DNA of 45,977 bases from Pseudomonadota bacterium (GTDB taxonomy: Bacteria > Desulfobacterota > Desulfobulbia > Desulfobulbales > CALZHT01): assembly GCA_018823135.1 (NCBI GenBank), contig JAHJJF010000034.1, positions 1 to 45,977 of the forward strand, read 5' to 3'. This document shows positions 22,676 to 34,388 of this stretch, piece by piece. Both the position numbers and the translations under genes were made by a program. Every line of letters begins with the position of its first letter. The first letter of the stretch is position 1. The notes under the pieces were generated by a model. That model was not told the DNA's origin. It was given only the letters and a program-made list of their open reading frames with translations, and searched no databases.

Positions 22676-22713
22676 GAAACCGGTTCCTTCAGGTATTCGT
22701 AAATTTTATATAA

Positions 22714-22923
22714 TTACATTCCTGCTACAGCGGTGAACCAAGCTTTTGTCATCGCTAAAGGGCCATTGGACACTACTGCGGCGACAAAACAGGTTGCTGC
22801 CCAGAGTCCGATCAACGCGGAGGTGCCGCCCATGACAGCGATGGCTCCCTTGGAGATAGTATCGATTCCAGCTTGAGTATTTGCGTGTGCGCCGGTTGTT
22901 GTCTGAGTTCTTATGTTTGTCAT
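22714..22923 (-). CDS. Small membrane protein, tandem paralogue 2
   Basis: This 69-aa protein starts MTNIRTQTTTGAHANTQAG and has one strongly hydrophobic segment (about residues 24-50) with GG, Leu-Trp-Ala-Ala-Thr-Cys, then Asn-Gly-Pro and a conserved tail KAWFTAVAGM. It is near-identical to the next gene upstream (differences mainly at Ala/Glu, Thr/Ile, Val/Thr positions), so it arose by recent duplication. AAGGAGATCATC precedes the ATG. Function unknown. Confidence 0.75.
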   Translation of the reverse strand: MTNIRTQTTTGAHANTQAGIDTISKGAIAVMGGTSALIGLWAATCFVAAVVSNGPLAMTKAWFTAVAGM

Positions 22924-22968
22924 GATGATCTCCTTAAATATCAATTAATTAATTTTCATTCAGTCAGA

Positions 22969-23178
22969 TTACATTCCAGCCACAGCGGTAAACCAGGCTT
23001 TGGTCATTGCCAGCGGTCCATTGGAAAGGACTGCGGTGGCAAAACATGCAACAGCCCAGAGTCCGATCAGTGCGGAGGTGCCGCCCATGACAGCGATGGC
23101 TCCCTTGGAGATAATATCGATTCCAGCTTGAGTGTGTTCGTGTGCGCCGGTTGTTGTCTGAGTTCTTATGTTCGTCAT
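22969..23178 (-). CDS. Small membrane protein, tandem paralogue 1 (first gene of sigma-54 operon)
   Basis: This 69-aa protein starts MTNIRTQTTTGAHEHTQAG, with a single hydrophobic helix (about 24-50) containing Gly-Gly, Trp-Ala-Val-Ala-Cys and a short amphipathic tail KAWFTAVAGM. The ribosome site GGAGG is ideally placed before the ATG at 23178; the frame runs on to 23229 but without homology to its paralogue. It is the first gene downstream of a near-consensus sigma-54 promoter about 56 bases before the start codon. The Cys and Trp in the helix are conserved in all three copies. Function unknown. Confidence 0.78.
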   Translation of the reverse strand: MTNIRTQTTTGAHEHTQAGIDIISKGAIAVMGGTSALIGLWAVACFATAVLSNGPLAMTKAWFTAVAGM

Positions 23179-23244
23179 GATGTCCTCCTTGGTATGTTTT
23201 GAAAAATGAATTTTTAAGTTCGTTGTCATTTGCTTTCTCTATAT

Positions 23245-24560: not shown

Positions 24561-25322
24561 ATGAACAAAAAAGTTTTGATAATCTCCGCCGCACTTATTT
24601 CTCTTGTATTCATCGCTGCAGGCACAGCTCCGGCATTAGAGATAGTTCCGGATAGCTACACTTTTACACCCAGCGCAGGTTACCAGCACGAAGGGACTTG
24701 GACATATGACGACCCGGGGCTTTCCAAGCTTACCGACGGGATCTATGGTGAAGACAATTGGACTGTAAATCAAGGTGCCGAATGGGTTGGCTGGCAAGGG
24801 ATTGCTTGGGACGGCTCATACGTAGACGGTAAGATTACCAAGGAAAATTATGATTTTCGCTCAATTGAGTTGAATTTTGATTTTGGAGAAGTAGTCACTT
24901 TGAGTTCGCTGGTTTTAGGTATTAATCAGGATGCGCTGTTTACCTGGAATGTTGTTTTCCCCAGTTATATTTCCGCAGAAACAATATCTTCCACCCTGGA
25001 AACACCATATGATTCAGCCAATTCAGGGCCTAATCCTCTTGGAAACGTCTATAATAATGGTAGACGTCATGATGTGATTTTTAATTTTGACCCCATTACA
25101 ACCTCTACATTTTCAATCACTCTGAACAATGCAGACAATTTTGATAAGCTCCTGTGGGAAAATTTTAACGATGGGATGTTCTGGATTTTTGTTGATGAGG
25201 TTGATTTTTATGATAAGCATGTGAATCCGGTTCCTGAGCCCGCAACCATGCTTCTTTTCGGAACAGGCCTTGCTGGATTGGCTGGAGTAATCCGGAGAAA
25301 AACAAAGAATTTATTAAAATAA
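24561..25322 (+). CDS. PEP-CTERM sorting-domain protein
   Basis: This 253-aa exported protein begins with a signal peptide (MNKKVLIISAALISLVFIAAGTAPA) and ends with a PEP-CTERM tag: VPEPATMLLF, a transmembrane run GTGLAGLAGVI, then a basic RRKTK end. Exosortase removes such tags as the protein reaches the surface. The middle is rich in aromatic and Asn/Asp residues and looks like a beta-sandwich of secreted matrix proteins. AAGAGG precedes the ATG. The sigma-54 promoter fits PEP-CTERM genes elsewhere that are governed by the PrsK/PrsR two-component system. No exosortase lies in the window, but an exopolysaccharide locus of the associated type starts at 43.6 kb. Confidence 0.9.
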   Translation: MNKKVLIISAALISLVFIAAGTAPALEIVPDSYTFTPSAGYQHEGTWTYDDPGLSKLTDGIYGEDNWTVNQGAEWVGWQGIAWDGSYVDGKITKENYDFRSIELNFDFGEVVTLSSLVLGINQDALFTWNVVFPSYISAETISSTLETPYDSANSGPNPLGNVYNNGRRHDVIFNFDPITTSTFSITLNNADNFDKLLWENFNDGMFWIFVDEVDFYDKHVNPVPEPATMLLFGTGLAGLAGVIRRKTKNLLK

Positions 25323-25352: not shown

Positions 25353-25389
25353 ATGCCGATCCGGGTGAAACCGGATCGGCATTTCTATT
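25353..25389 (+). terminator. Rho-independent terminator after the PEP-CTERM gene
   Basis: ATGCCGATCCGG and CCGGATCGGCAT form a perfect 12-bp stem around a GTGAAA loop, followed by TTCTATT. It insulates the PEP-CTERM gene from the glycosyltransferase gene. Confidence 0.88.
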
Positions 25390-25566: not shown

Positions 25567-27636
25567 TTGGACTTGGATAACATCATTTTCATAATCTATT
25601 TAATTTCCAAGGTTTCGCTGGTTGTGGCCGCAGTGATTTTTCTTATTAGCGGAATCGATGATATTATCTTTGATTTCTATTTTTTCATCTGGCAGGCCTA
25701 CCGCAAGCTCTTTGTGTATAAAAGGCACAAACGCCTGGAAGAAAATGATCTTTTGCAAAAAGAAGAGCAGTATATTGCCATGTTTGTCCCTGCCTGGCGA
25801 GAAGAAGCAGTAATAGGCAAGATGCTGCTCAACACGGTTGGGTCCATTGACTACAAAAAATACCATATTTTTGTCGGCACCTACCCGAATGATGACGGAA
25901 CCAGGCTTGAGGTTGAAAAGGTGCGTCAGGTTTATGGAAATATAACACGAGTTGTTTGCCCTGAAGATGGACCGACGAATAAGGCTGACAACCTGAACTG
26001 GATCTATCAGGGCTTGATTGCCTTTGAAAAGGAAAACAAGCTTCGCTTTAATATCATGGTCATGCATGACAGCGAGGACATTATTCATCCCCTGTCCCTG
26101 AAACTCTATAATTATCTGATGCCACGATTTTCCATGGTGCAGGTCCCCGTATATCCTCTCCCATGTCCGGTCACTGATTTAACCTGCGGTATTTACATTG
26201 ATGAATTCTCTGAAAATCACAGCAAGGATCTTCTGGTTCGCGAACGCTTTGACGGCTGCATCCCGGCAGCGGGAGTTGGCTGTGCATTCTCAAGGGAGGC
26301 CCTTGAAGCTAAGGCCGAGATGAACAATAATCTCTTGTTCAACACCGATTCCCTTACCGAGGATTATGAGTTCGGCATGGGGCTGCGGGATGTTCCCGGA
26401 AAGAAAATTTTTGTAAAACAACCCATCTTCCGGGTTGTTACCGGCGCTGACGGCAAATCGAAAAAAAAGGAAGAAATTATAGCCACAAGAGAATTTTTTC
26501 CAAGCCGCTTTTGGGCGGCAGTCTCGCAGCGAAGCCGCTGGACACTGGGGATTGCCATTCAAGGTTGGCAATCTCTTGGCTGGAGGGGAAGTGTATCGAC
26601 TAAGTTCGTACTGTACAAGGACAGAAAGGTTCTGGTAACGAGCTTGATTAATCTCCTTGGCTATGTAGCCTTCTTTTATTTTATCGCGGAACTCATATTG
26701 AAAAAAAGGATGGGCTATTCCATCCTGCCGCCGTTGGTCAGAGGCGATTCCTGGATTGTATATGTCATAATTATCGATACGTTTATAATGCTGCAGCGTC
26801 TTGGCAGCAGGTTTTATTTCGTCACCAGGATTTTCGGCCTGGCGCACGGGTTCATGTCTATTCCAAGAGTATTCTGGGCAAATATTCTGAATTTTTTCGC
26901 CACCTATCTGGCAATCTATCAATTTATTAGATCCTTATTTACCAAAGAAACCATTGCCTGGTCAAAAACCTCCCACGAGTATCCAACCGACGAGCAACTC
27001 ACACATTATCGCCGGAAGCTGGGAGATCTGCTTCTGGAGAGACGTTTTGTTTCGGTGGAACAGCTCAACCAGGGACTTGCCATCCAAAAGGAGACGGGTA
27101 AACCTCTTGGAGAAATTCTTGTAGAGATGGGACACCTGGAGGAAGAAGACCTCATGTATTCTCTCGGGAAACAATACAATGCACCAAGTGAAGTTTTAAA
27201 TCCCCATGAAACGGAACTTTCCCTCCTCCAGAGTGTAAGAAAAGACATTTGTGAAGAGTTTCAATGCTATCCGGTCAGGCGCGAAGCGGAGATTCTTGTC
27301 ATGGCTACCTGCGATATCAGTTTATATAATGATCCGGTAAAGCTGAAACAAGCCTTGAGCGACGAACCGTCTATTGCCATGATTTTGAGTTGCAAGCCGG
27401 ATATTGATTTTGCTATCCAGCGCGGATACGGGCGTTTAGCCTCCGGTGAACCCACAGCAAAGAATACTTTGGGCAGCAGGCTGATTGAGGAAGGCATGAT
27501 AACCCCCGAACAGCTTGAGACAGCAATCAGGCGTCAGAAACGGACCAACGAAAGACTCGGGGCGGTTTTAATTGATATAAAAGCCATAAATGCTGAAGAC
27601 CTGGATAATGCGTTAAGTCGAAATCCTCATCCGTAA
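25567..27636 (+). CDS. nfrB: NfrB-like processive glycosyltransferase with two MshEN c-di-GMP modules
   Basis: This 689-aa inner membrane protein has an N-terminal membrane helix (about 6-42), a family 2 glycosyltransferase domain (about 70-330), three or more C-terminal membrane helices (about 355-460) and a cytoplasmic tail. The processive motifs are visible: D168-x-x-D171, T264-E265-D266 and Q321-x-x-R324-W325. The tail holds two pairs of the 24-residue MshEN motif (x-L-G...L...G...L...Q), each split by a 5-residue spacer: 484-507/513-536 and 634-657/663-686. MshEN pairs bind c-di-GMP, as in E. coli NfrB. Translation starts at TTG; the first in-frame ATG is about 70 codons in and would delete the first helix. 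The next gene begins 5 bp after the stop. Likely role: c-di-GMP-activated synthesis and export of a surface glycan. Confidence 0.88.
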   Translation: MDLDNIIFIIYLISKVSLVVAAVIFLISGIDDIIFDFYFFIWQAYRKLFVYKRHKRLEENDLLQKEEQYIAMFVPAWREEAVIGKMLLNTVGSIDYKKYHIFVGTYPNDDGTRLEVEKVRQVYGNITRVVCPEDGPTNKADNLNWIYQGLIAFEKENKLRFNIMVMHDSEDIIHPLSLKLYNYLMPRFSMVQVPVYPLPCPVTDLTCGIYIDEFSENHSKDLLVRERFDGCIPAAGVGCAFSREALEAKAEMNNNLLFNTDSLTEDYEFGMGLRDVPGKKIFVKQPIFRVVTGADGKSKKKEEIIATREFFPSRFWAAVSQRSRWTLGIAIQGWQSLGWRGSVSTKFVLYKDRKVLVTSLINLLGYVAFFYFIAELILKKRMGYSILPPLVRGDSWIVYVIIIDTFIMLQRLGSRFYFVTRIFGLAHGFMSIPRVFWANILNFFATYLAIYQFIRSLFTKETIAWSKTSHEYPTDEQLTHYRRKLGDLLLERRFVSVEQLNQGLAIQKETGKPLGEILVEMGHLEEEDLMYSLGKQYNAPSEVLNPHETELSLLQSVRKDICEEFQCYPVRREAEILVMATCDISLYNDPVKLKQALSDEPSIAMILSCKPDIDFAIQRGYGRLASGEPTAKNTLGSRLIEEGMITPEQLETAIRRQKRTNERLGAVLIDIKAINAEDLDNALSRNPHP

Positions 27637-27641
27637 AGGCC

Positions 27642-30600
27642 ATGAAAAATAACTCTGTTAATAAACTTGCAGTATGTTTCCTGGTTCTGGGCGCGCTCCA
27701 TTTGTACGGAGGGTCCGGTTCCATTGAACAAAACATGTCTTCAGGGGAAGGCGCCCTGGCGGTTCTTGGCCTGGATATTCCCCTTGCTCGTGCCGCAGCT
27801 GAGAAGAAAGGGGATATTTACGACATCATACCAGAAAGAATCGAGCTTCCGGCGCCCCAGGACCTGCGCAATTGGTTTGCAGATCAGAAGGCCTATGTGA
27901 AAACCTATCGCTACTTCGACCGCGGCTACAGGAATATCCAATCCGGGAAATTTCAGGCTGCGGCAGAGGATTTTATCACTATACTTTCCAAGGATCCTGG
28001 AAACCGTCTTGCGCCGCTTTATCTTGCGGAAATTGAAATAAAGTTGGGTAATATCGAACGCGCCATCTCGATTCTCGAGAAATACCTTGTTCAATATGGC
28101 GATAGTGGTGAAGTTCGGATGCAGTTGGCTTTTATCTATCTTGATCAGGAAGAGATTGACAAGGCACTGACTTCTTTTGAAAAAGCAGCTGAGCACCTTA
28201 ATCCAGACACCCGGGAATATTTAACCGCACAGGCAAATCTTGCTGAAATATATTTGAAAAAAGAGCAGTTTCAAGAGGCTCTGGTGCCCCTGGAATATCT
28301 GCAGAAAAGATATCCGGATAATGGATTGCTCTTATACAAGATCGGTTTTTGTCTCAAATCACTTCTCCGGAAGGAGGAATCAAAGGATTTTTTTCAACGT
28401 GCCCTGAAAAGCCAGAATCTTAAAGGTGAAGCAATAAATAATTGCCGATTGGAACTCGCTTATATTGCATACAGTCAGAGATCCATGAGAGAGGCAAAGG
28501 AACTCCTGGAACAAATAATTGAGTCTTCCGAACCGGACAGCTTGGCGCAGCTCACAGCCCGGTCTCAGCTTATGGATGTATTCCTGGAAAGTGGGAATGA
28601 TGCGGCGGTTATAACACAGTATAATGCAATTGCCCCTGCTGACAGGTCCCCACAGATCAAGATAAAAGCGGCCTATGCTGAAAAGAATCTGGGAAATAAT
28701 AAACAGGCCGTGTTTCTTTTTGAAGAGGTACTCTCTTCAGGGGGACTTGATAAACAAGAAATAATGGTCCGCCTTGACCTTGCCCGGCTCTTTGTAATGC
28801 AAGAGGAATGGGTCCGTGCTGAGAATCAGCTCAAGATTATTCTTGAAGATCAGGAAGTAGAAAGTCAAACAATTGAAAACGCACAGGTTCTCATTGCTGA
28901 GATAATGATTGGCCAGGGGAGGTTGGATGAGGCAGTAAAGATCATTAATAAGCTGCAAAAGACAACGGCCGGAATCTATGCGGCCTTCAGGATTGCAGAA
29001 CTCTATAATGCAAAGGGTGAATTTGCCCAAGCTGAAGGGATTCTTCGAAAACTTGCCGAAAGTGACGCTTTTAAGGCGCCGGACAGAGCCCGGGCAACAA
29101 TGGAACTGGCTTTTTTGCTGAGCGGTCATGGCCGGACGCAGGAAGCGGCAACCCTTCTTGAGAAAGTATTGCAGAGTAAGGAGCTAGCCTCCGAAAATAG
29201 AACTCTTGCTGAAAGAAATCTTGCGCAATTGCAATACAGACTCGGCAATTATCCGGAAGCTCTTGCCCTGGCAACATCTTCTTATAGGCAATCATCAGAC
29301 CCGTCTCTTCTGTTTCTGCTCGCCTCAACGCACGCCGCTCTTTATAAGGACAAAAATATCGCTCTACCGAAAACCCGGGAATCAACGGCTCATTATCAAA
29401 GTGCAGCTGGCTTTTTTCAGAAGATAATAGATGACCCGACTGTTGATATTGCAATGCGCGATAAGGCGCTCAATCATCTTGCTTTTCTCCATCTCGAAGG
29501 CGGTCGCGCTGATTTGGCCAAAGATTTATTCAGCTCAATTTTGTCCAAGGGCCCGGATAATTTATTGGTCATTGAAACGTTAATGGAACTGGCAAAGCAG
29601 GAAAGGAATGCTGAAGAATATCAGTCTTATTTGCAGAGGTATGAGTCCCTGGTAAACACCAGTGAATTACAAGTCCAAACAGCTGAAACCCTGATGGAAT
29701 TGGGTTATTATCAAGAGGCTCTGAAGCGATACGAAAAGCTGTTACTGAATGAAAAACGATTAGCTGTAAAGGCTGATATCTATCGGAACATGGGCTTTCT
29801 TGGTTTGAAAATTGATAATACCAGCCTGGCAATAGACTCTTTTCAGAAGTACCTGCAGATAACTCCGCAGCATGACTTGGAAGTTATTGCGCAGCTCGCA
29901 GAAATCTATATTAATTCTGAAAATTGTGCCGCTGCAATCCCCTTGCTTGAAGACTTGATCAAACAGCGACAAGGATTCAAGGGGTATCTCCAACTTGCAC
30001 GATGCAACAATGAAATCGGCAATAATCAAGAGGCTGTTCTTTGGTACGGGAAAATCCTTGAGTTGAGCTATAGGCCTGACATTGTTCTTGAGACTGCCCA
30101 AGTCCATGCGCAACTAGGTAATATTAATCAGGCGATACTCTATCTTGATTCGCTGACCAATTTGACTAGTCTCGATAATATGCAACGGTTAAAAACACAT
30201 CTTTTACTTTCTAAATATCATGGAAGTCTGGGAAATAGAGAACTCCAGAGAGAATTTGCCGGCAAATCTCTTCTGGCCGCTCCTGAAAACGCAGATATTG
30301 CAGACCTGTTTTATGCTTCGGTAATAAGTGGGATTCAGAGCCCGGCTCGCGAACAATATGTGAAAAAGGTGCAGGCGGATCCGGATCCCCGTTCCCGGGC
30401 TGCAAGATTGTATGAGATGGCTGAACTTTATGAGATCGGCGGAGATGCTGATCAGGCCCTGGAAACCATAATTCAGGCCGTGAACGCCGAACCCCTTGCT
30501 CTTTATATATTTAAACGAGGAGAGCTCCTGTACAACAAAGGGGATTTTGAAAAAGCGCTGGCAGATTTTCAAGCGACCTGGGAGCATGAGCCGCGCTCCG

Positions 30601-32165
30601 CGCTGTATCTTTCCTTTATTTATGCCCACCAGAAAAAACCCGGCCTGGCGATTGATTACCTTGAACAGTCCATTGACATGCATAAAGAGATGGATACTGA
30701 ACTCAAGGCAAGGATGTTTGAGCAGCTGGTCTTTCTTTATTTTGATGAGGGGCAGGTTGAGAAATCCCTTGCTGTTGCTGATAAGGCGCTGCTTTTATGG
30801 CAAGGTGATAATCCGGAAATTATCATGGCCAAGGGCCAATCACTGATCCGGCTGAATCGACCGGAAGAAGCCATGGTTCTAGGCCGTGCCGGGCTTGAAA
30901 AAGCCGCAACCGGGGAAGAAACGGCAAAGTGGCAGAAAATAATGGGCGATGCCGCCCGGGCAATGAATGATTTGGAAGCATCGAATAATTTTTATCAGGA
31001 GTACCTCATTGATTTTAAAGATGACGCGGATGTGAATTATTTAATCGCAAGCAACCTGTTCAAGATGGGTAACTATGAAGAAAGCCGGAAATATATTGAA
31101 AAAGCAATAGCACTCGACCCCGGGAATCTGACATACCTGCCCGACTATAGTTTCGTACTGATCAAGCTGAACGACATCGAAACTGCGCAAAAAGTCCTGG
31201 ATCGTTATCTGGCTCATTATCCGCAAGGCCTTGTTGTGTTGGAAGATGCCGCTTTTTTGAATATGAGAGAATGTAATAATCAAAAAGCCGCCAACCAGTT
31301 CAAACAGGCAATGGACATAAGGCAGCTCCGTCTTGCCACAGCAGACATTGCGCCGGAAGAATTGAACGTCCAGAGGGCATATATTTACGGGTTGAAAGAA
31401 ACCGTTTTGAGCCTTGAAAAAGAATTTTCTTTTTCGGCGTATTTGAATAGGCTTGATCTTGCAGGCAGCGGGACCACCCTTTATCGTGGCACCATAGCCT
31501 CACAGCTGGGCTTTGAGTTTGGCTGGCGGCCCGAAACCATAGGGATGCGTGACCAGCGAATATTTGAGTTTACCGGCCGGTTGCTTGGTAGTTTTGAAGG
31601 TCGGTCATGGACTTATGATGAGAAAAGCACGCAACTGGCAGTGGGTGCCAGATATAAACCCTTTAAACCCGTTAATTTTTTTGCTTCCTTTGAACGGTTG
31701 ATTAAACTGGGTTCCAACAGTGAAGATAACTGGCTGCTCCGTGGCCTGCTCTCTGAAAGCTGGGGGCGCAACCCGCAGTTCGGTCCACAGTCCTGGCATT
31801 CCGGATCTGTATATTTTGACGTAGCCGGATTTCTTGAAAACAGCAACTCCGGCACCCAACGGATTGCGGTGTATAGTGAATTCAAAGACGGGATCCTTTT
31901 TCGCCTCAATGAAAACTGGGGCATGGTTCCTCATTTGATCATCGACATGCATTGGGACGATACCCAGGATGCCCTGGGTACCTACCTGGAGGGAGGGCTT
32001 GGGGTTGAGCTTCTTGGCTGGCATCACGAAACGAGATATAAGGCCCATGACTGGCGCACCTCTGTTTTTCTTCAATATAAGTGGGGGACCTTCGATGATC
32101 TTCCGGTTGGAGAAGAGGGCAAGGGTTATCATGGCCCAGTATTAGGAATCAGTGTTACACATTGA
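27642..32165 (+). CDS. nfrA: NfrA-like TPR/outer-membrane glycan export protein
   Basis: This 1507-aa exported protein begins with a signal peptide (hydrophobic run AVCFLVLGALHLYG). From about residue 85 to 1200 it is almost entirely tetratricopeptide repeats, with recurring AxxxLxxAxxxxP and LGxxxxAIxxxxK patterns. The last 250 residues are beta-rich with alternating hydrophobic strands (RYKPFKPVNFFASFERLIKLGSNSEDNWLLRG...). They resemble the C-terminal domain of E. coli bacteriophage N4 adsorption protein A. E. coli NfrA is about 990 aa; this one is longer, mainly through extra repeats. The layout also recalls BcsC/PgaA, with periplasmic TPRs plus an outer-membrane pore. It starts 5 bp after nfrB and is followed 10 bp later by the DUF4434 gene, so the three form one operon. 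Confidence 0.85.
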   Translation: MKNNSVNKLAVCFLVLGALHLYGGSGSIEQNMSSGEGALAVLGLDIPLARAAAEKKGDIYDIIPERIELPAPQDLRNWFADQKAYVKTYRYFDRGYRNIQSGKFQAAAEDFITILSKDPGNRLAPLYLAEIEIKLGNIERAISILEKYLVQYGDSGEVRMQLAFIYLDQEEIDKALTSFEKAAEHLNPDTREYLTAQANLAEIYLKKEQFQEALVPLEYLQKRYPDNGLLLYKIGFCLKSLLRKEESKDFFQRALKSQNLKGEAINNCRLELAYIAYSQRSMREAKELLEQIIESSEPDSLAQLTARSQLMDVFLESGNDAAVITQYNAIAPADRSPQIKIKAAYAEKNLGNNKQAVFLFEEVLSSGGLDKQEIMVRLDLARLFVMQEEWVRAENQLKIILEDQEVESQTIENAQVLIAEIMIGQGRLDEAVKIINKLQKTTAGIYAAFRIAELYNAKGEFAQAEGILRKLAESDAFKAPDRARATMELAFLLSGHGRTQEAATLLEKVLQSKELASENRTLAERNLAQLQYRLGNYPEALALATSSYRQSSDPSLLFLLASTHAALYKDKNIALPKTRESTAHYQSAAGFFQKIIDDPTVDIAMRDKALNHLAFLHLEGGRADLAKDLFSSILSKGPDNLLVIETLMELAKQERNAEEYQSYLQRYESLVNTSELQVQTAETLMELGYYQEALKRYEKLLLNEKRLAVKADIYRNMGFLGLKIDNTSLAIDSFQKYLQITPQHDLEVIAQLAEIYINSENCAAAIPLLEDLIKQRQGFKGYLQLARCNNEIGNNQEAVLWYGKILELSYRPDIVLETAQVHAQLGNINQAILYLDSLTNLTSLDNMQRLKTHLLLSKYHGSLGNRELQREFAGKSLLAAPENADIADLFYASVISGIQSPAREQYVKKVQADPDPRSRAARLYEMAELYEIGGDADQALETIIQAVNAEPLALYIFKRGELLYNKGDFEKALADFQATWEHEPRSALYLSFIYAHQKKPGLAIDYLEQSIDMHKEMDTELKARMFEQLVFLYFDEGQVEKSLAVADKALLLWQGDNPEIIMAKGQSLIRLNRPEEAMVLGRAGLEKAATGEETAKWQKIMGDAARAMNDLEASNNFYQEYLIDFKDDADVNYLIASNLFKMGNYEESRKYIEKAIALDPGNLTYLPDYSFVLIKLNDIETAQKVLDRYLAHYPQGLVVLEDAAFLNMRECNNQKAANQFKQAMDIRQLRLATADIAPEELNVQRAYIYGLKETVLSLEKEFSFSAYLNRLDLAGSGTTLYRGTIASQLGFEFGWRPETIGMRDQRIFEFTGRLLGSFEGRSWTYDEKSTQLAVGARYKPFKPVNFFASFERLIKLGSNSEDNWLLRGLLSESWGRNPQFGPQSWHSGSVYFDVAGFLENSNSGTQRIAVYSEFKDGILFRLNENWGMVPHLIIDMHWDDTQDALGTYLEGGLGVELLGWHHETRYKAHDWRTSVFLQYKWGTFDDLPVGEEGKGYHGPVLGISVTH

Positions 32166-32175
32166 GACGTAACGC

Positions 32176-33237
32176 ATGATGCAAGGTATTAAACGTAATT
32201 CCTTTCTGTTTCTCCTTGGTTTGATCCTGGCGCATTCCATTTTTGGGAGTATTTCTTCCGGGATGGAAGTATCCGTTCGTGGACAACAAAATCCTGCCCC
32301 CGGAATCTTTATCCAGCCCAATAATCAGATGGCTGCCTGGCCTGAGAAACAATGGCAGCTTGAGTTCCAACGCATGCAGGACCTTGGCTTCAAGGTGTTA
32401 ATTGTGCAATGGTGCCGCGATAAAGATATTTTCTATTACCCCTTGCCGCCGGATTCAGATGACAATCGTCCCGGACAGGTCGCCATCCCTCACAGGAATA
32501 TGCTCGGCACGATTAAACGTTTTGCCGAGCAGTTCGGCATGGAGTTCTATCTTGGGCTCTATCATGAAGCGTCTTTCTGGGAGCAAATCAAACAAAAACC
32601 GGAACTCCTTGAAGGCTATCTGCTCAGCTTGGGAGAGCGAAATTTTGAGGTGGCTAAGGCATTGTTGCCACTGGTGAAGGATTCTCCAGGTTTTAAAGGT
32701 TTTTACATTCCTCAGGAGGTCGATGATCTCACCTGGATGGATAAAGATAAGGCCCGACGTTTGAGCTTGTTCCTTTCCCGTTTGACCGAGCGGTTGAAAA
32801 GATTGCAACCTGATGCGGATGTTTTAATCAGTACTTTTTTCCGGGGCCGCTCTTCTCCGGGATCTTTTGCCGAAATGTGGCAGATGATTTTATCCCGGAC
32901 CAGGATAGATGTACTTCTTGTTCAGGATGGAGTGGGAAGTGGAGAGGTGTCACTGCATTTTCTTGAGCGATACCTGGTGGAGTTGCGGAAACGATTACCA
33001 GAAGGGAAAAACCGGTTATGGGGTGTGGTAGAGGCCTTTGATGTGATCACCGATGAAAAGCAGGAGTTTGTTGCCGGCAGCGCCCCTATGGCAAGAGTCC
33101 AGCAACAAATGTCCACAGCAGATCCCTTAGTGGACAAACTTGTCTTCTTTTCTCTTAAGTACTTTATCCCTTCCGCAGAGGTTCCCGGTTCCAGGGAATT
33201 ATCCACTGATTATTTGAAACGGAGAGAAGTCCGTTAA
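32176..33237 (+). CDS. DUF4434/YbcH-like periplasmic TIM-barrel protein
   Basis: This 353-aa exported protein has a signal peptide (FLFLLGLILAHSIFGSISSG). The rest reads as a TIM barrel with the pattern of DUF4434 proteins: IFIQPNNQMAAWPEKQWQLEF, LGFKVLIVQWCRD, EFYLGLYHEASFW, FKGFYIPQEVDD and IDVLLVQDGVG. Acidic residues at strand ends (the Glu of PQEVDD, the Asp of VQDG) could form a glycosidase-type active site. In E. coli the DUF4434-type gene ybcH neighbours nfrB and nfrA. It begins 10 bp after nfrA. Its stop overlaps the convergent wecB stop by 4 bp. Likely role: trimming or modifying the exported glycan; not shown. Confidence 0.8.
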   Translation: MMQGIKRNSFLFLLGLILAHSIFGSISSGMEVSVRGQQNPAPGIFIQPNNQMAAWPEKQWQLEFQRMQDLGFKVLIVQWCRDKDIFYYPLPPDSDDNRPGQVAIPHRNMLGTIKRFAEQFGMEFYLGLYHEASFWEQIKQKPELLEGYLLSLGERNFEVAKALLPLVKDSPGFKGFYIPQEVDDLTWMDKDKARRLSLFLSRLTERLKRLQPDADVLISTFFRGRSSPGSFAEMWQMILSRTRIDVLLVQDGVGSGEVSLHFLERYLVELRKRLPEGKNRLWGVVEAFDVITDEKQEFVAGSAPMARVQQQMSTADPLVDKLVFFSLKYFIPSAEVPGSRELSTDYLKRREVR

Positions 33238-34388
33238 GGTCGGCTGGCTTTGTTTCTCAGAAATTCCAGGCAGCCGTCAACAATCAGTTTTGCCGCCCTG
33301 CCATCTCCGAACACCTTACTCGGTACTGCCATTTTGTTGTATCGTTCCTGGTTTTTCAGGATATCAAGGGCCTCATTGATAATTGTTTGGGCGTCCGTGC
33401 CGACCAGTTTGGCAACCCCGCTTTCCACCGCTTCGGGTCTTTCCGTAACATCCCGCATGATTAATGTTGGTTTGCCGAGAACAGTTGCCTCCTCCTGGAT
33501 GCCGCCAGAATCGGTGAGCACTAAGTAGGCATTTTTTAAAAGAGCGACAAAGGAGAGGTAATCCAAGGGTGAAACCAGAAGGATATTGTCCAGGTCACCG
33601 ATTAATTCGTGCACCGGTTTCCATACATTGGGATTCAGATGCACAGGGTAGACAAGGCAGGCGTCAGGTATCTCTCTGGCGATTTCCCGCAGGGCTTTGC
33701 AGATGTTTGAAAAACCGTGCCCAAAGCTTTCGCGGCGGTGACCTGTGACCAGGATGAGACGTCTGTTGTCAACTGTTTTCAGGATTTTTGCAACCTCGTG
33801 TGAAGCTTTGTATCGACCCTTGTCAATGCCATCTGAAATGATCTGCAGGCTGTCAACAACCGTGTTTCCGGTGATTACAATTTGATTTTCCGGGACATTT
33901 TCCTTGCGGAGATCGTTGTAGGCTTTTGTTGCCGGGGCAAAATGCAGATCCGCCAGAGGGGTGACGAGCTGCCGGTTGATTTCTTCAGGAAACGGCAGGA
34001 ATTTATCGTGGGTCCGGAGGCCTGCCTCGACATGACCTACAGGGATTTTCAGATAAAAAGCGGCAAGGGCCCCCATGCATGCAGAGGTGGTGTCGCCCTG
34101 GACAAGAACCATGTCCGGCTTGAGTTGTTCGAGAGCTGGGGCAAGTGCACGTATCAGGCGGCCGGTCAGGTCCGGCAAGGTCTGGCTTTCCTGCATCACA
34201 TCAAGATCCATGTCCAGGCTGATACCCAGAGAGTTGACGATCTGGGCCTGCATGTCTCGCTGCTGGCCGGTGGCAAGGGTGAGGCCGACACAATTTTCCC
34301 TGGCCTGCAATTCTTTGATGACCGGAAAGAGTTTGATAACTTCGGGCCTGGTTCCAAAGATGGTCACTATTCTGGTTTGTTGAGTCAT
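33234..34388 (-). CDS. wecB: UDP-N-acetylglucosamine 2-epimerase (non-hydrolysing)
   Basis: This 384-aa enzyme interconverts UDP-GlcNAc and UDP-ManNAc. Family signatures are GTRPEVIKLFPVI (residues about 11-23), LVQGDTTSACMGALAAF, HVEAGLRT, FPEEINRQ, and the C-terminal TDSGGIQEEATVLGKP and TERPEAVESG. It lies tail-to-tail with the DUF4434 gene, sharing 4 bp. WecB is required for the NGR glycan in E. coli, so its place beside nfrAB suggests it supplies UDP-ManNAc (or a derivative) to the glycosyltransferase. No wecC or other ManNAc enzyme lies in the window. Confidence 0.95.
   Translation of the reverse strand: MTQQTRIVTIFGTRPEVIKLFPVIKELQARENCVGLTLATGQQRDMQAQIVNSLGISLDMDLDVMQESQTLPDLTGRLIRALAPALEQLKPDMVLVQGDTTSACMGALAAFYLKIPVGHVEAGLRTHDKFLPFPEEINRQLVTPLADLHFAPATKAYNDLRKENVPENQIVITGNTVVDSLQIISDGIDKGRYKASHEVAKILKTVDNRRLILVTGHRRESFGHGFSNICKALREIAREIPDACLVYPVHLNPNVWKPVHELIGDLDNILLVSPLDYLSFVALLKNAYLVLTDSGGIQEEATVLGKPTLIMRDVTERPEAVESGVAKLVGTDAQTIINEALDILKNQERYNKMAVPSKVFGDGRAAKLIVDGCLEFLRNKASRP

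Follow-up and report, generated by a model that had tools for sequence, protein, structure and literature searches.

The nfrB-nfrA-ybcH module of E. coli specifies a c-di-GMP-activated exopolysaccharide, which is the receptor of phage N4 (PMC8669469, PMC8669472). According to the open-licence text of these papers, an NfrB fragment of residues 414-745 binds c-di-GMP with a Kd of 1.0 uM (PMC8669469), and plating of or infection by N4 is lowered by point changes in NfrB, e.g. G491L and G519S (PMC8669472). Both of these 2021 papers assign c-di-GMP binding to one MshEN domain, which in the text of Sellner et al. is flanked by a "domain of unknown function".

MshEN domains have also been described in other proteins. 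In the open-licence text on the Vibrio cholerae protein MshE, the isolated subdomain MshEN_N, lacking the C-subdomain, is reported to bind c-di-GMP at 0.35 uM, and proteins of the (MshEN_N)2 type are mentioned in general, not for NfrB (Wang et al. 2016, PMC5013675). The pilus ATPase PilF of Thermus thermophilus is described as having three full GSPII domains, i.e. several MshEN-type domains per chain, two of which are working sites with values of 324 and 12 nM (PMC12002112). The same text gives the first of the three, GSPII-A, as non-binding; it has lost the Arg, both Gln and one Gly, and measurable binding required that the motif II Arg and both Gln be restored (PMC12002112).

The occurrence of two or more MshEN units in one protein, both in PilF and more generally, is thus already known, as is the control of NfrB by c-di-GMP. 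A second MshEN unit in NfrB was not found in the open-licence papers searched, among them PMC8669469, PMC8669472, PMC5013675, PMC12943098, PMC9765702, and PMC12002112. It is apparently new, and it is of more interest as a fact about the family than as a local one.

A complete nfrB-nfrA-ybcH gene set next to wecB

The stretch of DNA that was analysed, here called the window, comprises 45,977 nt of contig JAHJJF010000034.1. The gene at 25567-27636 (+ strand, TTG start) encodes a protein of 689 aa, which scores 618.3 bits with the family model NF012033 (PRK15489; cut-off 537) and thus belongs to the NfrB-type family. The score with NF008411, the equivalog model of E. coli NfrB, is 539.4 bits and lies below the cut-off of 1170, so that the protein is kept out of this narrow class. 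It aligns with E. coli NfrB from end to end with 35% identity.

Residues 70-327 (25774-26547, + strand) form a family 2 glycosyltransferase domain (Pfam PF13641, 104.1 bits). The motifs of processive family 2 enzymes are present, i.e. DxD (D168), TED (264-266), and QxxRW (321-325, with Q321 and W325), and they are invariant in comparison with E. coli NfrB. A first-pass annotation made from the sequence alone had called the protein a glycosyltransferase, which the family score and the catalytic motifs bear out; its identity as NfrB had been missed.

Both gene partners of an NfrB-type protein are encoded alongside. The nfrA-type gene (27642-32165, + strand) specifies TPR repeats, with matches to many TPR families, and an outer-membrane NfrA_C domain (PF13283, 73.8 bits, cut-off 25). 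It is followed by a ybcH-type gene (32176-33237, + strand) with a DUF4434 domain (PF14488, 169.1 bits); its score with NF007404 is 111.3 bits, below the cut-off of 344, and E. coli YbcH reaches 520 bits with this model. The wecB gene for a UDP-GlcNAc 2-epimerase (33234-34388, - strand; TIGR00236, 428.6 bits, cut-off 210) is convergent with the three genes, and its end overlaps that of ybcH by 4 bases. The window therefore contains a complete nfrB-nfrA-ybcH set beside an epimerase that would supply UDP-ManNAc.

The genome has 20 GGDEF matches, suggesting that c-di-GMP is likely to be made. At the thresholds used, NfrB is scarce among the kin of this organism and was found in three of 257 genomes of the class and eight of 395 genomes of the phylum, the own genome being counted in both. 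Searches of phages and of viral contigs revealed no relatives.

Directly upstream of nfrB lies a gene for a PEP-CTERM surface protein (24561-25322, + strand), and a strong, terminator-like stem-loop (25353-25382) is located between the two. The gap ahead of the PEP-CTERM gene contains direct repeats (22713-23190), i.e. two copies of 223 bases that are 87% identical and have a spacing of 255.

Two MshEN_N units in the NfrB-type protein

The C-terminal part of the protein contains two MshEN_N tandem motifs, each composed of a pair of 24-residue motifs separated by five residues. Unit 1 (residues 484-536; 27016-27174, + strand) consists of residues 484-507, the spacer KETGK, and residues 513-536, and unit 2 (residues 634-686; 27466-27624, + strand) consists of residues 634-657, the spacer KRTNE, and residues 663-686. 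The first-pass annotation had located both, including the spacers, exactly to the residue. In a search of the own genome with NF053729, the NCBIfam model of the MshE-type c-di-GMP motif (cut-off 38), unit 1 scored 65.1 bits over positions 1-53 of 53 and unit 2 scored 64.4 bits; as isolated fragments they scored 64.3 and 64.5 bits, respectively. Both halves, and not one alone, therefore score as MshEN, in line with the layout that had been proposed for each.

The region between the units, residues 544-623 (27196-27435, + strand), is an MshEN C-subdomain according to an alignment with PilB and to PF05157, with which it scores 24.2 bits as a fragment and 21.0 bits within the whole protein (cut-off 23.1). 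Its Asp583 aligns with a conserved Asp of PilB and, by an extrapolation over three residues, may correspond to Asp108 of MshE. Unit 2 forms the C-terminal end of the protein and is not followed by a C-subdomain. As isolated MshEN_N of Vibrio binds without it, the missing C-subdomain would be no bar to binding.

PF05157 matches only the C-subdomain. The families DUF4388 and DUF2949 match unit 2 weakly, which we read as an overlap of motif models.

For comparison, contigs with relatives were scanned. The 80 loci are the best 80 of 570 relatives and are thus a biased set; together with E. coli and the window they yield 82 proteins. They were searched for motif pairs with a hand-weighted matrix based on the published motif, independently of the present sequences. 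In none of the proteins of more than 550 aa in the 82-protein set did residues 1-430 contain a pair above the threshold, and 82 shuffled proteins contained none either. A chance origin of unit 2 was rejected on the basis of the profile scores, the shuffled proteins, and the predicted fold (see below).

The arrangement can be compared with three described ones. V. cholerae MshE (5htl) has the same two 24-residue motifs with a 5-residue spacer as both units of the window, but in the latter MshEN is doubled, lies behind a glycosyltransferase, and lacks the C-subdomain after unit 2. The (MshEN_N)2 type to which Wang et al. refer shares the doubled subdomain, whereas in the window a C-subdomain lies between the units. 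PilF likewise has several units per chain, one of them non-binding, but each of its GSPII domains is described as full, in contrast to the window's unit 2.

MshEN half-motifs also occur elsewhere in the own genome. On contig C120 (L014, 1477-1857), an ORF of 127 residues consists of about four half-motifs only and is perhaps a free-standing doubled MshEN_N. Contigs C16 and C125 (L002 and L012) have related ORFs of 384 and 386 residues without an ATPase part, in which several half-motifs are followed by an apparent MshEN C-subdomain.

Predicted structure of the second unit

An AlphaFold2 model of the full-length protein, based on 41 sequences, has a mean pLDDT of 90.3 and a pTM of 0.80. In this model unit 1 is composed of four short helices (485-491, 497-510, 514-520, and 526-536), the C-subdomain has an alpha/beta fold (551-626), and unit 2 again has four short helices (635-684). 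A fold comparison of the whole protein retrieved only glycosyltransferases and synthases, which cover residues 6-477, and the glycosyltransferase part resembles BcsA and hyaluronan synthase. The C-terminal part is barely probed by this comparison, and therefore unit 2 was also modelled separately (69 residues, mean pLDDT 78.1, below 50 for the first 10 residues).

The best match of the isolated unit 2 model was MshE bound to c-di-GMP (5htl), with a Foldseek TM value of 0.75 and an rmsd of 1.3 over 54 columns. The Foldseek E-values of such a short model are weak (best 9e-3), and the 17 best rows are all domains of MshE, PilF, or PilB. The superposition with 5htl has a Z value of 10.2 and an rmsd of 2.2 over 58 residues; seven entries exceed a Z value of 7, every one of them a domain of MshE or PilF. 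By its layout and its predicted fold, unit 2 is thus a genuine second MshEN_N-type unit and only a putative c-di-GMP site. It is named after layout and fold rather than after a ligand because its contact set is incomplete.

Conservation of the contact residues

In the window's unit 1, the Leu, Gly, and Gln residues are present in both motifs, and position 1 is Lys in motif I and Pro in motif II. Pro is also the commonest residue at this position of motif II (61 of the 82 proteins, i.e. the best 80 of 570 relatives plus E. coli and the window). In unit 2, Thr634 replaces the Arg at position 1 of motif I, and Asn686 replaces the last Gln; the Arg at position 1 of motif II and one Gln are retained. 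One centre Gly is replaced in each unit, by Arg493 in unit 1 and by Lys672 in unit 2. The terminal Asn had been noticed in the first-pass annotation, but neither the Thr nor the replaced centre Gly. Under a relaxed rule, unit 2 has 10 of 12 contact positions, the same number as unit 1 of E. coli NfrB. Unit 2 is more complete in some relatives, with 12 of 12 contacts in L040 and 11 of 12 in L043-L046.

E. coli NfrB shares with the window's protein the glycosyltransferase motifs, the MshEN past the last membrane helix, the partners NfrA and YbcH, and a C-terminal region that matches NF053729. Residues 625-745 of E. coli NfrB alone score 46.3 bits, above the cut-off of 38, and may correspond to the region to which Sellner et al. 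assigned no function. The difference is that unit 2 of E. coli is worn, with neither Gly nor Gln in its first motif, whereas that of the window has the full 5-spacer layout. In unit 1 of E. coli, the first Arg and Gln are missing and the spacer is four residues long, and yet this is the best-kept unit of the fragment that binds at 1 uM; G491L and G519S fall into this unit. The second unit in the tail is a reason to revisit the stoichiometry of the fragment 414-745.

Conservation across the family was quantified with a non-redundant subset of 45 proteins. It excludes 37 of the 82 proteins, the glycosyltransferase parts of which share 85% identity or more with that of a retained protein or are shorter than 300 residues, and is likewise drawn from the best 80 of 570 relatives, as are all values in this section; L038 was aligned into register by hand. 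In unit 1, the Gly and Gln of motif II are invariant in all 82 proteins, and unit 2 is looser. In the 45 proteins, the Gly of both motifs and the last Gln of unit 1 are invariant (45/45), and the mean entropy is 0.61 for contact columns vs. 2.08 elsewhere.

The second units fall into two forms, with spacers of five and of six residues. For the 12 5-spacer proteins, including the window, the mean entropy of unit 2 is 1.21 for contact columns vs. 2.02 elsewhere. The Gly is mostly kept (motif I 9/12, motif II 11/12), but the Gln is found in 9/12 (motif I) and 6/12 (motif II), and Arg or Lys at position 1 of motif I in only 5/12. The refuting observation named in the first-pass annotation, substitution of the ligand-contacting Arg, Leu, or Gly in homologues, thus has a mixed outcome: the Gly is mostly retained, and the Arg is often replaced, as is the last Gln. 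For the 20 6-spacer proteins, which represent a large proteobacterial clade, the values are 0.65 vs. 1.78. Their motif I has Leu at position 1 and Tyr at position 24 (19/20 each), and their motif II has Arg in 18/20 and Gly and Gln in 20/20. Before removal of redundancy, Tyr is present in 40 of 41 6-spacer units, the exception being Phe in L042; one 5-spacer unit (L097) also has it. By these entropies and residue counts, unit 2 drifts among the window's kin, but in the 6-spacer clade it is under tight constraint with a changed set of residues.

Distribution and age of the second unit

Unit 1 is present in all 82 proteins (the best 80 of 570 relatives, E. coli, and the window). A second motif pair was found in 55 of them by threshold and in 57 when L037 and L041 are included; in these two the stop codon cuts off the last motif ahead of position 24, and they were counted by hand as having unit 2. 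Of the remaining proteins, 18 stop after unit 1; the other seven extend further beyond it, but no second pair was scored in their tails. When ten C-terminal tails were searched alone with NF053729, eight were above the cut-off, and L056 (33.8) and L053 (28.0) were below.

A third scored pair occurs in L040 and L047. After the C-subdomain region, these two have two scored pairs and L038 has four half-motifs, i.e. an array longer than that of the window. In L087 (Pseudomonas amygdali), the nfrB frame ends within unit 2, and the copy of this strain may be damaged; the row was left as it is.

A second draw, made without ranking by resemblance to the window, covered 398 genomes from the phylum to which a Pseudomonas belongs. 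Of these genomes, 18 had a match at E ≤ 1e-100, and 14 were above the family cut-off; 11 of these 14 proteins have a second pair and three end after unit 1. The other four matches of this draw contained no scored MshEN pair. The second unit is thus family-wide and not special to the window's genome, which had escaped the first-pass annotation. That it is a peculiarity of the window's lineage was rejected on these two counts (57/82 and 11/14). The C-terminal tail of NfrB, a recently characterised c-di-GMP effector, hence gains an identity as a second, variably worn MshEN_N unit.

The presence of both units in one chain could also be the result of a recent local duplication or of an assembly artefact, and nothing else speaks for such an origin. 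In 32 non-redundant proteins from the best 80 of 570 relatives, the mean similarity score of unit 1 and unit 2 is 57.6 within the same protein and 57.5 between different proteins, and that of the second units of different proteins is 82.2. Unit 1 and unit 2 are therefore about as dissimilar within a protein as between proteins, the second units resemble one another, and they recur in independent genomes. A recent duplication was rejected on the similarity scores, and this origin, artefact included, is extremely improbable. The duplication is ancient, and unit 2 goes back to an old NfrB ancestor. When the glycosyltransferase parts of the 45 proteins are arranged in a tree, eight changes are needed to explain the presence of unit 2; they are not divided into gains and losses, as the branching order at depth is in part open and several rows sit on long branches.

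A BcsB-like gene is found nearby at 38 of 41 6-spacer loci, at none of 14 5-spacer loci, and at 15 of 18 loci with unit 1 only (best 80 of 570 relatives); the presences are lower bounds because some loci are incomplete. The association of this gene with the fixed Leu/Tyr signature of the BcsB-associated clade, together with the invariant Gly and Gln of motif II, would be compatible with unit 2 being a site for another ligand, e.g. another cyclic dinucleotide or a protein partner. However, this signature is not seen in unit 2 of the window, which has Gln and a spacer of five residues, and BcsB is also common next to short proteins without unit 2. Moreover, the 6-spacer clade is mostly one lineage, and common descent accounts for part of both the residue pattern and the BcsB pattern. 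We regard such a ligand change as quite unlikely.

A related and still rather unlikely proposal is that NfrB-type synthases read two signals, unit 1 being the c-di-GMP switch and unit 2 a separately evolving ligand site. The first half of unit 2 in the BcsB clade would then have been rebuilt (Leu/Tyr for Arg/Gln, a spacer of six) next to a canonical second half, as if an asymmetric or a different nucleotide were held, and unit 2 of the window would resemble the older, symmetric form. In the Tyr/6-spacer form, a known nucleotide-binding site has been altered throughout a clade, which could help to reveal how sites of this kind acquire new roles.

Proposed roles of the two units

The relative importance of the two units was judged from the comparison with PilF, in which the window's unit 2 keeps the motif II Arg and one Gln and has Asn and Thr at two contact positions, weighed against unit 1 of E. 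coli NfrB. On this basis we somewhat favour the reading that unit 1 is the c-di-GMP switch of an NfrB-type exopolysaccharide synthase and that unit 2 is an auxiliary module that binds weakly or not at all. The lower contact-column entropy of unit 1 compared with the 5-spacer unit 2 is in agreement with this division, and so are the location in unit 1 of the E. coli changes that lower N4 plating and the presence of unit 1 in all 82 proteins (best 80 of 570 relatives, E. coli, and the window). In contrast, the equal scores of both units with NF053729 and the 10 of 12 relaxed contacts of unit 2 speak against it, and in the 6-spacer clade the contact columns of unit 2 are about as constrained as those of unit 1, which argues against a relic there.

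The NF053729 scores above the cut-off and the 10 of 12 relaxed contacts would also be expected if both units bind c-di-GMP, leading to a two-step or cooperative activation across a wider signal range. Unit 2 retains the motif II Arg, the loss of which is reported to abolish binding in PilF (PMC12002112), fuller second units exist in relatives, PilF is a precedent for two working sites in one chain, and MshEN_N alone is able to bind. However, the window's unit 2 has Thr at the first and Asn at the last position, two relatives (L037 and L041) end ahead of the last Gln, and the 18 short proteins from the best 80 of 570 relatives keep unit 1 without unit 2. Binding by both units is therefore possible, but we consider it doubtful. 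The first-pass annotation had offered cooperative or graded control by two sites, or one site that had become structural; the latter fits this protein somewhat better. The contact set of its unit 2 is partly eroded.

Under the favoured division of roles, the protein would be an inner-membrane synthase that is activated by c-di-GMP, by analogy with E. coli. The switch that responds to c-di-GMP would be formed, like that of E. coli NfrB, by unit 1 and its C-subdomain, and unit 2 would most likely serve in packing or docking, or at best be a low-affinity site. The enzyme would probably polymerise a sugar of the ManNAc type, using UDP-ManNAc supplied by the WecB encoded next to it, and the chain would then be handed to the outer-membrane pore NfrA. 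A second wecB gene above the cut-off is present elsewhere in the genome (contig C47).
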